This document shows, in pieces, positions 59,003 through 64,000 of a stretch of 64,000 nt of DNA. Each line of letters starts with the position of its first letter. Within the stretch, counting starts at the first letter, position 1. Source of the DNA: Methanosarcinales archaeon Methan_01 (GTDB taxonomy: Archaea; Halobacteriota; Methanosarcinia; Methanotrichales; Methanotrichaceae); contig LUYE01000048.1 in NCBI GenBank assembly GCA_001602645.1, forward strand, positions 28,143-92,142. Direction: 5' to 3'. Under the pieces are notes generated by a model. That model worked only from the letters and a program-made list of their open reading frames with translations. It had not been told where the DNA came from and ran no database searches. The position numbers and the translations under genes are program-made.

Positions 59003-60874
59003 CTACACAAGCACCTTTCCTACAACGCTCATGGGTTCCCTCATCTGGACCACGGTCCTATTCAGGGGAGCAATGGATAGGATTTTTGGCTCCGTCGTCA
59101 CTTGGTTCGACGTGTACTCCTCATCGCATCGCCGGTCCTTCAGCACCACATATACGCCCTTGGGTGGTGTCTCACCCTTCTTCACGGCAAACCACAGGTT
59201 CTGCAGATCCGATGGGGAAGAGAGAGCGCAGAACCCGTAAAGTCGTATTCCACTGGCATCGTAGATGTCCACCCAAGTCCGAGAGGACTCCGTGTTCAGG
59301 CCGCAGGGTGGCAGATCCGGAGCAGCTTCGAACAGCTCTCCAGGATAGGCGTTCCAGTTGGTCACCGAGAGCTTGTACCTGGTAAACTCTCCGCCACTGG
59401 CGGTATAATCTTCGGTTCCGGTAAGGGTCAGCTTGGGACTTGGAAGGTTGGAATAACACTCGTATTGGAGACACTGGTGGTAGACGTTGGCCTTGTTCAG
59501 GCCGCTCTCGATCAGTTGGGGCACATTCCAGCCGAGGATGCGGGTGACGTCGTTGTCCCAAGCATACTGGTGGGCCTCGCCAAAGGAGATCCTGCCGTCT
59601 CCATTCGTGTCAGCAGATGGGATGCTGAAAGCCATCATGTAGCCGTATATGCTCTCGCTTCCGGTGTCCGCCGGGTTTGGATCTGACCCATCGTCGATAT
59701 CAGGCCATGAGGAGGTGTCGGTGGATGCCGAGGTGAAGACCACCCGGTTGGTCTCACCGTCGCCGGTCAGCTCGTTCTCTCCAGCCGCGTAGGTTCCGTC
59801 CTTGTACTTGCCTATGAAGCTCCCACTATGGCAGGCCTCGATGATGATGGCCATCTCCTTACAGCTGATGGCGTCGAGCCAGTTGTCCATCTCATCGGCC
59901 GTTATGGAGCCGCCGTCCGGGCTGCCTGGCACGCAGGATACGAAGTTGACGTTGCCATGAGAGCTGTAGAGAAATAGCACCTTGTCCTTGATGTCGGATC
60001 GGGCTGCCACCTCATTGATGGCCCACTGGACGTTGCTCCTGCTCGTCGGCCTGTCCACGCCAGCGTGACCCGCATGGGGGCTGACGTAGAAGATGTGGTC
60101 ATCAGGAACGCCCAAGTTTTTGAGGACGGAGTACATCCCATTGGTGTCGTCATCGAAGCTGTCGGGCAGGTCGTTGTAGCCGCAGACCAGAACCGCCCAG
60201 ACGTCGCAGTTGATCAGGGGCTTGATCTCCCCCACCTGACCTAACGCCCCATAAGAGGTGCTGAGCTTCACCTCAGCGGCGGGCTTTTTGTAAAAGGTGG
60301 TGAGCTTTGGATCGGTCCGGATGGTCTCCGTATCGAATAGCTGGACGTCGTTGACCTTTGGCCACCAGTCGGTCTCCATCTCCTGCTGCTCTCCTGTGGC
60401 CGCGTCTACCAATACCAGCTTGACCGGATGGGCGAAGTGGGCCCCCGGCAGCTCGTCGACCATGAACAGCCAGCTCTGATTCTGAGCTACCATCCTCCTG
60501 GAGGGACCGCCCAAGGGGGCAAAGGCCGGCTCTATCACGGCCCCTTCCGCCAGCATCTCATCATGCTGCAGCACCCTCATCCCCTGGCGTTGGTCGGCCC
60601 GCTCCCACAGGGGAGCGACGACAGCGTCTTGGACCAGCCGGGCAGCTGTCTCCCGGTTCAGGAGCTCCAGGCTGGCGATGGCAGGAGATCTCTGAATCAG
60701 CTCGGCTCTCTTCAGCATCGGGCTTGTTTTGAGGACGGCGGTCGTCTCCTTCACGTCGTCCGTCGATTCTAGGGATGCGCCCAGGGATAGACCTGCCGAG
60801 CATAATAGCAGCAGAGAGACGGTCACCGCCCAGGTCGTGGCTGCCAATAATTTGCGAGATTCATTTGATCTCAT
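59003..60874 (-). CDS. Legumain-like cysteine protease (peptidase C13), exported
   Basis: From ATG 60874 (GGAAGGTCTTTGAG ahead) the product is 623 aa with a signal peptide ending SLGASL. Residues about 30-200 form an N-terminal domain that recurs alone in the next gene. The C13 domain has the histidine in YSSHGN (about residue 305) and the cysteine in EACHSG (about residue 347), the legumain-type pair. DTNGDGRISF near residue 424 is an EF-hand-like calcium loop. A C-terminal beta domain follows (LTLTGTEDYTASGG to VVGKVLV). The 671-aa track start is less likely. C13 enzymes cleave after Asn or Asp; an extracellular role is expected. Confidence 0.82.
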   Translation of the reverse strand: MRSNESRKLLAATTWAVTVSLLLLCSAGLSLGASLESTDDVKETTAVLKTSPMLKRAELIQRSPAIASLELLNRETAARLVQDAVVAPLWERADQRQGMRVLQHDEMLAEGAVIEPAFAPLGGPSRRMVAQNQSWLFMVDELPGAHFAHPVKLVLVDAATGEQQEMETDWWPKVNDVQLFDTETIRTDPKLTTFYKKPAAEVKLSTSYGALGQVGEIKPLINCDVWAVLVCGYNDLPDSFDDDTNGMYSVLKNLGVPDDHIFYVSPHAGHAGVDRPTSRSNVQWAINEVAARSDIKDKVLFLYSSHGNVNFVSCVPGSPDGGSITADEMDNWLDAISCKEMAIIIEACHSGSFIGKYKDGTYAAGENELTGDGETNRVVFTSASTDTSSWPDIDDGSDPNPADTGSESIYGYMMAFSIPSADTNGDGRISFGEAHQYAWDNDVTRILGWNVPQLIESGLNKANVYHQCLQYECYSNLPSPKLTLTGTEDYTASGGEFTRYKLSVTNWNAYPGELFEAAPDLPPCGLNTESSRTWVDIYDASGIRLYGFCALSSPSDLQNLWFAVKKGETPPKGVYVVLKDRRCDEEYTSNQVTTEPKILSIAPLNRTVVQMREPMSVVGKVLV

Positions 60875-60995
60875 CTCAAAGACCTTCCGCAATACATCAT
60901 CATATAGGGAGCAAAGGGAGCAAGATGGTCTTTCTGCCGAAGGATCAGCCTCGGAGATGCGACGGCGACCATCCTTTGGCCCCCCGTCCATTTTC

Positions 60996-61517
60996 TTAGA
61001 AATTCGGCTCCTTCTCAAAGACGATCGTCTCCGGATCCTGCCTCTCCGTCTCGTTCTCGAAGGCGGGCTGGATTATGACCGGCCACCACTGACCATCCAT
61101 GGATTGGATCTCCCCAGTTATGGCATCTAGCACCGCTATTATCACTGGATGAGCGAAATGAGCTCCGGGAGCCAGGTCCAGGAAGAATAGCCAGCTGGCA
61201 TTCTGGCAGAGCAAGAGACCCGATGGCTCAAGTTCATCCTGGTTTGCCTCCATCACCCGGGTGCCAGAATCCAGCAGATCCTGGTGCTGATTGACTCTCA
61301 GGCCCATCTCAAGCTCGGAACTCTCGGTCAGGTTCCTGACCAGGGTGTCGATGATCATCCTGGACGCCTCCTCCCTGGAGATCACTGACGGGTTTATGGC
61401 GTCCTCTGCCTGAGGAGAACCGAGGCATAGACTCACAGAGGCCAAGATCGCTATCATAAGGCCAGCAGCCCTGAACAAATTCAAAGGCCATTTATCACCA
61501 TTCGGCTTTAGGTTCAT
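60996..61517 (-). CDS. Free-standing homologue of the C13 protease N-terminal domain
   Basis: From ATG 61517 (GGGGGTC ahead) the product is 173 aa with a signal peptide. Its core matches the N-terminal domain of the next gene's protease in order: QNASWLFFLDLAPGAHFAHP against QNQSWLFMVDELPGAHFAHP, then LDAITGE and QWWPVI. No protease part is present. It lies upstream of the protease on the same strand, 121 bases before its start. A free prodomain could act as an inhibitor or folding helper in trans. The name of the domain is not known to me. N-glycosylation sites (N-x-S/T) occur. Confidence 0.7.
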   Translation of the reverse strand: MNLKPNGDKWPLNLFRAAGLMIAILASVSLCLGSPQAEDAINPSVISREEASRMIIDTLVRNLTESSELEMGLRVNQHQDLLDSGTRVMEANQDELEPSGLLLCQNASWLFFLDLAPGAHFAHPVIIAVLDAITGEIQSMDGQWWPVIIQPAFENETERQDPETIVFEKEPNF

Positions 61518-63569: not shown

Positions 63570-64000
63570 CTATTTAGAGACGATTTCAGCATTTTTAAGT
63601 GTACATAGCTGTTATAAGTCGAAAGCGAAGGCAGTGAATACCATTTTGACGTGAACTCTCGGGATCGTCGTCACCATGACAGGGGCGCTTCGGAACACTC
63701 TTTTAATAACGGCAAACTGACGTTCGCCCGGAGATCTCAGTCTGCTGATCAAGCGGTTTCGCAGCTGATCGAGATCGCTTAGGGGATGACCCGCTGCTGC
63801 ACGCTTCATAATGAAGTCGTTTCCCTTAGCCTTCACACCGAAATATCCTTTGTCCCTGAGGACCACCTCACCTTCAACCGATAGATCAACCCGACTATCG
63901 TGAACCGAAGCAGTTGTCGATTCGATGCTCCTTATCAGGCCGTAATCGATATCGACTTTAGAATGAAGTTTATAACCAAAATGTAGTTCCTCCCCCTTCT
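63570..64000 (-). pseudogene. IS5-like DDE transposase, C-terminal part, prematurely stopped, off window
   Basis: Minus-strand translation from the right edge gives LHFGYKLHSKVDIDYGL, SVHDSRVDL, VLRDKGYFGVKAKGNDF, and HPLSDLDQLRNRLISRLRS then RQFAVIKRVF, the C-terminal DDE layout of IS5-family transposases (second Asp in LRDKGY, Glu in ERQFAVIKR). After AFAFDL an in-frame TAA at 63614-63612 stands where family members usually have a Tyr (NLYQL), and the same frame continues QLCTLKNAEIV to a TAG at 63572. So the last 13 or so residues are lost. The rest is outside the window. It may be inactive. Confidence 0.7.

Follow-up and report, generated by a model that had tools for sequence, protein, structure and literature searches.

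Peptidase gene and free domain gene in the window

The window, a 64,000-nucleotide stretch of an archaeal genome of 2.6 Mb, contains a gene for a C13-like peptidase and, on the same strand, a gene for a free twin of the peptidase's N-terminal domain (Table 1). The peptidase is composed, in order, of a signal peptide, the N-terminal partner domain, the catalytic domain and a C-terminal beta-rich module; signal peptides in both proteins were assigned by eye. The free gene is upstream, and the gap between the two is 121 bp with the ATG taken as the start of the peptidase. The initial annotation described the N-terminal domain as repeated in a free protein encoded by a same-strand neighbour, and this is confirmed by a BLASTP comparison of the mature part of the free protein with residues ~70-198 of the peptidase (42% identity over 129 aa, E 4e-31) and by the presence of both shared motifs in each copy. 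No third copy of the domain was found in the genome. We note a partial, transposase-like reading frame at the window end (63615-63998), beside a stretch of lower GC content at 62-64 kb.

Table 1. Features of the peptidase gene and the free domain gene, in window coordinates
Feature	Coordinates	Strand	Remarks
C13/caspase-fold cysteine peptidase, secreted, 623 aa	59006..60874	(-)	stop codon 59003-59005
N-terminal domain of the peptidase, residues ~69-199	60278..60670	(-)	helix and antiparallel strands, AF2 pLDDT about 90
Catalytic domain, residues ~224-475	59450..60205	(-)	legumain-like fold (Foldseek)
Catalytic His306 codon	59957..59959	(-)	SHG; YSSHGN
Catalytic Cys348 codon	59831..59833	(-)	EACHSG; IEACHSGS
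EF-hand-type loop DTNGDGRISFGE, 12 residues	59576-59611	(-)	in C-terminal part of catalytic domain; putative Ca2+ site
C-terminal module, residues ~476-600	59075..59449	(-)	no counterpart in the G015 and G034 peptidases
Free N-terminal-domain protein, 173 aa, signal peptide	60999..61517	(-)	stop codon 60996-60998
Motif SWLFxxDxxPGAHFAHP, fused copy	60425-60475	(-)	
Motif SWLFxxDxxPGAHFAHP, free copy	61146-61196	(-)	
Motif WWP, fused copy	60359-60367	(-)	
Motif WWP, free copy	61080-61088	(-)	

Catalytic domain and C-terminal module of the peptidase

The earlier assignment to the C13 proteases agrees with a match to PF01650 (Peptidase_C13) above its cut-off (29.1 vs 22.8 bits), and the caspase model PF00656 (Peptidase_C14) matches equally well (29.3 vs a cut-off of 21.4). 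A Foldseek search with an AF2 model built from 24 sequences returned legumains as the best matches for the catalytic part (E 8.8e-8, target TM 0.47), where the model confidence is moderate. His306 and Cys348 are invariant across the set of 14 peptidases. The C-terminal prodomain of eukaryotic legumains (~110 residues) is absent, and its place is taken by an accessory module or, in G015 and G034, by nothing; we therefore refer to a C13-like enzyme and not to a legumain in the strict sense. Asn/Asp cleavage specificity, a criterion of the legumain family, is only a candidate property for this enzyme. The EF-hand-like loop reported initially is indeed a textbook example, the canonical 12-residue form being kept in 11 of the 14 peptidases with Pfam EF-hand models below their cut-offs, and the peptidase may be calcium dependent.

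The C-terminal module is considered accessory because two orthologues lack it. It (FTRYKLSVTNWNAYP...SSRTWVDIYD...LWFAVKKGE) has 55-65% identity to many other secreted proteins of the Methanotrichaceae (also at L040 and L018) and 58% identity to a protein of 331 aa encoded by a Saprospiraceae genome (Bacteroidota), a match that suggests transfer of the module between archaea and Bacteroidota. A role of the pair in anti-phage defence was considered and rejected, as PADLOC gave only a generic caspase match for the peptidase and none for the free protein.

The N-terminal domain

AF2 predicts the N-terminal domain as a single N-terminal helix followed by antiparallel strands; the full-length model (pTM 0.54) provides no usable arrangement of the domains. 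The domain is conserved along its length and contains the invariant motif PGAHFAHPV. No relatives were found in Pfam, NCBIfam or the PDB. A Pfam-A scan of 20 domain members gave no match common to them and none to I29, and in a fold search against the PDB and viral models the confident matches listed were to the catalytic domain alone, with none to the N-terminal domain. Two specific identities were tried and discarded: a PepSY-like one, prompted by a 'VLDAxTGE' hairpin, gave an hhalign probability of 7.7% against a small set of six PepSY sequences, and a cystatin-like one relied on the sole PDB sequence match, a multicystatin at chance level (E 0.3). Similarity to FTP propeptides, looked for by Pfam scan only, gave no match. 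By sequence criteria the domain is thus a new family, without a Pfam entry or a sequence relative in the PDB.

The mature free protein has one invariant cysteine (Cys104), present in all free copies of the Methanotrichaceae and replaced by Ala or Ser in the fused copies. Its invariance is limited to the free copies of that family.

Distribution and linkage to C13-like peptidases

Searching for the domain alone and fused, as the initial annotation had proposed, identified 23 copies in 14 Halobacteriota genomes, the group covered by the domain-profile linkage searches. Thirteen are fused to a C13-like peptidase, nine are free and directly adjoin one, and the remaining copy is at a contig edge, such that every copy with readable surroundings is either part of a C13-like peptidase or directly beside one. 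Among 50 Methanotrichaceae genomes, seven have the free gene, which in six is followed directly downstream on the same strand by the peptidase gene; the seventh (G035) is the one at a contig edge. Conversely, in this family the free twin lies directly upstream of the peptidase in all six genomes that encode the enzyme. Neighbouring genes vary from genus to genus, which leaves the pair as the only unit that stays together, and this conserved linkage gives good support to the earlier view of a small regulatory pair.

The domain is rare in a sample of the whole phylum (6 of 394 genomes), and all six carriers encode a C13 peptidase, compared with about 27 of 394 genomes overall (hypergeometric P 6e-8). 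The family search itself found C13 peptidases in 26 genomes, but it missed G219, whose protein matches C13, and 27 was therefore used. Most other C13 peptidases of the phylum, about 24 genes in the sample, are without the domain. An iterated profile identified more carriers in the class of G224 and none beyond those known in the classes of G219 and G117, and no relative was found in plasmids, phages or viral contigs at the sensitivity used. The initial annotation had also allowed that the domain might be a common surface module with no particular link to C13 proteases. The peptidase does carry a module of this type at its C-terminus, but the rarity of the N-terminal domain, and the location of all its readable copies in or beside a C13-like peptidase, contradict the idea for the Halobacteriota, and we consider it very improbable.

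Gene arrangements and evolution

Free copies are found beside a peptidase gene in four lineages (Methanotrichaceae, G219, G572 and G224), and the gene orders vary (ARRANGEMENTS). In the Methanotrichaceae (a) the free gene precedes the fused one. The same order is present in G219 (b), with the free gene upstream and no signal peptide apparent in either product. In G572 (c) the fused peptidase comes first and the free copy is downstream, an adjacency read directly on one contig that starts inside the peptidase gene; this free copy has a weak C-terminal match to a PGF-CTERM-like sorting/anchor end. In G224 (d) there is no fused copy, and the domain has a gene of its own 3 bases upstream of a peptidase gene that lacks the N-terminal domain and is followed by a radical SAM/SPASM maturase gene. 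Finally, G117, G566, G570 and G576 (e) have only the fused form within the stretch available. The initial annotation placed the pair outside the cell, which fits the two proteins of the window, both with signal peptides, but not their relatives in G219 and G224, for which none is apparent.

The G572 and G224 loci have further features. Adjoining the G572 pair (L076, 2794-5376) is a gene whose secreted product contains HYR repeats; one part of this product, FYELAHGGS, is reminiscent of clan CD peptidases, although there is no Pfam peptidase match. The G224 genes (L073, 3037-8200) have an operon-like layout consisting of the free domain, a 434-aa C13 peptidase, the radical SAM/SPASM protein, which resembles SCIFF/ranthipeptide maturases, and a 620-aa protein of unknown function. 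The C-terminal part of this peptidase contains repeated C-x-P-[IL]-S-R-[IL]-I-like units. The cluster looks like a peptide-modification (RiPP-like) system, and the repeats that are modified may be part of the peptidase itself.

The free copies of the Methanotrichaceae form one clade (96/99) apart from the fused copies, and the duplication is therefore older than the carrier genera of this family. Across the tree four changes between free and fused labels are needed, at least two of them forced by well supported branches, and a repeated origin of free copies is probable, with long branches leaving the deep order uncertain. Within the Methanotrichaceae, where synonymous change is unsaturated, the free gene has dN/dS values of 0.12-0.28 and the fused domain has values of 0.10-0.32. 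Both forms are under purifying selection, and they make up separate groups of old origin. Partial duplicates often arise next to the original gene, and the free gene could in principle be a decaying, functionless remnant of a peptidase duplicate. However, it is intact in seven of seven Methanotrichaceae genomes, with its own signal peptide and its own clade, and free copies occur in several separate lineages; together with the dN/dS values this conservation contradicts the explanation, and we give it next to no credence.

Comparison with known protease-inhibitor pairs

The initial annotation saw no resemblance to known systems, but the principle has precedents in other protease families, including the I29 inhibitors, SUB1-ProM and SpeB-Spi; the inhibitor Spi is similar to the prodomain of SpeB. 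In Streptococcus pyogenes the gene for the C10 peptidase SpeB is transcriptionally coupled to the gene for its small specific inhibitor Spi, as cited in PMC3462683, and the window likewise has a peptidase gene beside a small partner gene. SpeB, however, belongs to the papain-like clan and the domain is unrelated, and inhibition has been shown for SpeB-Spi whereas we infer it here. Staphostatins and the C10-associated inhibitors of Bacteroides are also encoded by small genes directly beside secreted cysteine proteases, and some are exported (PMC3462683), but these inhibitors do not copy a domain of the protease itself. Closer in this respect is SUB1-ProM of Plasmodium, a stand-alone subtilisin propeptide-like inhibitor encoded beside subtilase genes in conserved synteny (PMC6993865); here too a copy of a protease domain is a conserved neighbour, although SUB1-ProM concerns a eukaryotic serine protease, a propeptide known to be removed, and a different fold family.

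The I29 propeptide-like inhibitors CTLA-2alpha, crammer and BCPI are free N-terminal protease domains that act on the cognate protease, and CTLA-2alpha cannot inhibit without one cysteine, which forms a bond with its protease (PMC4089206). The single invariant cysteine of the Methanotrichaceae free copies is comparable, and Cys104 may have a similar role, but the domain is unrelated to I29 in sequence, and the I29 inhibitors target cathepsin L-type enzymes. Closer to the catalytic domain, an excerpt of PMC4357240 describes two clan CD enzymes. Eukaryotic legumain, with which the archaeal enzyme shares its catalytic fold and its His and Cys motifs, is kept latent by its C-terminal and not its N-terminal domain; the archaeal enzyme lacks that prodomain and has a different N-terminal domain and the EF-type loop. 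Gingipain RgpB (C25) has an N-terminal inhibitory prodomain and calcium sites, and by that account is similar in its clan, its N-terminal domain and the putative calcium loop. Its prodomain is larger (229 aa) with known autoprocessing sites, and the excerpt describes no adjacent free copy.

Possible function of the free domain

A domain that is fused to an enzyme in some genomes and is separate but adjacent in others is a classic sign of two parts that bind each other. As this domain is found with one enzyme type only, whether fused or separate, it is expected to bind that enzyme, and the maintenance of the pair through evolution suggests that the free piece may control it. By analogy with the systems above, the reading that we judge most likely, at about an even chance, is that a prodomain-like domain binds the catalytic domain and that the free protein is a dedicated trans-acting inhibitor or folding partner. 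The domain would dock on the catalytic domain; in cis it would keep the newly made enzyme latent or aid its folding, and in trans the free copy would act as a co-produced, dedicated inhibitor or chaperone. The free copy might re-bind an enzyme whose own N-terminal domain has been displaced or removed. Since separate copies accompany enzymes that have the domain already, the free copy most likely either competes for the docking site or supplements it. Counting against this proposal are G117, G566 and G570, whose fused domains have no free copy in the stretch read, as well as the latency of eukaryotic legumain through a C-terminal domain and the AF2 model with its unusable domain arrangement. 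A broader version, to which we lean less, is that the family is a dedicated regulatory partner of this archaeal C13-like branch, interchangeable between cis and trans, and that the free form locks the enzyme by means of its conserved cysteine.

Between the N-terminal domain and the catalytic part is a linker of ~24 residues with little conservation and low AF2 confidence, in which the alignment shows no invariant residue. Removal of the domain in the manner of a prodomain is therefore unsupported, although cleavage is not thereby excluded. The domain could instead be a permanent substrate- or ligand-recognition (targeting) domain, with the free copy acting away from the active site as an adaptor, competitor or decoy for the same ligand. 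We regard this as somewhat unlikely, but it stays a serious rival because no conserved cleavage site was found; the invariant PGAHFAHPV, the conservation of the whole domain and the weak sorting/anchor-like match at the C-terminus of the G572 free copy are also in its favour. A general ligand module, however, should have other partners, and across all genomes searched the domain occurs with C13-like peptidases only, including the very different setting of G224 with its cytoplasmic-looking peptidase beside a radical SAM maturase. Alternatively, the free protein could be a dedicated substrate, recognised through its likeness to the enzyme's N-terminal domain, as the one-to-one gene linkage and its small, secreted nature would allow. 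This appears improbable, as the whole folded domain is conserved with no conserved extra segment for release, and the G224 peptidase has no copy of its own, leaving such likeness without a role there.

To our knowledge, archaeal C13 and caspase-like peptidases, and the way in which they are silenced, have received little study. Within our partial coverage of the literature, we know of no earlier stand-alone prodomain-type regulator for clan CD peptidases or in archaea. If the broader version of the proposal is correct, the free protein would be, as far as we know, the first in both respects, with a new domain family serving a regulatory principle that is itself already known. A structure of the domain would be new information, as it has neither a Pfam entry nor a sequence relative in the PDB. 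The small, recurrent combination of enzyme and free domain offers a ready two-protein system for studying how a peptidase is silenced, and its natural fused, duplicated and split versions could be used to study how a regulatory domain of a protease shifts between cis and trans.
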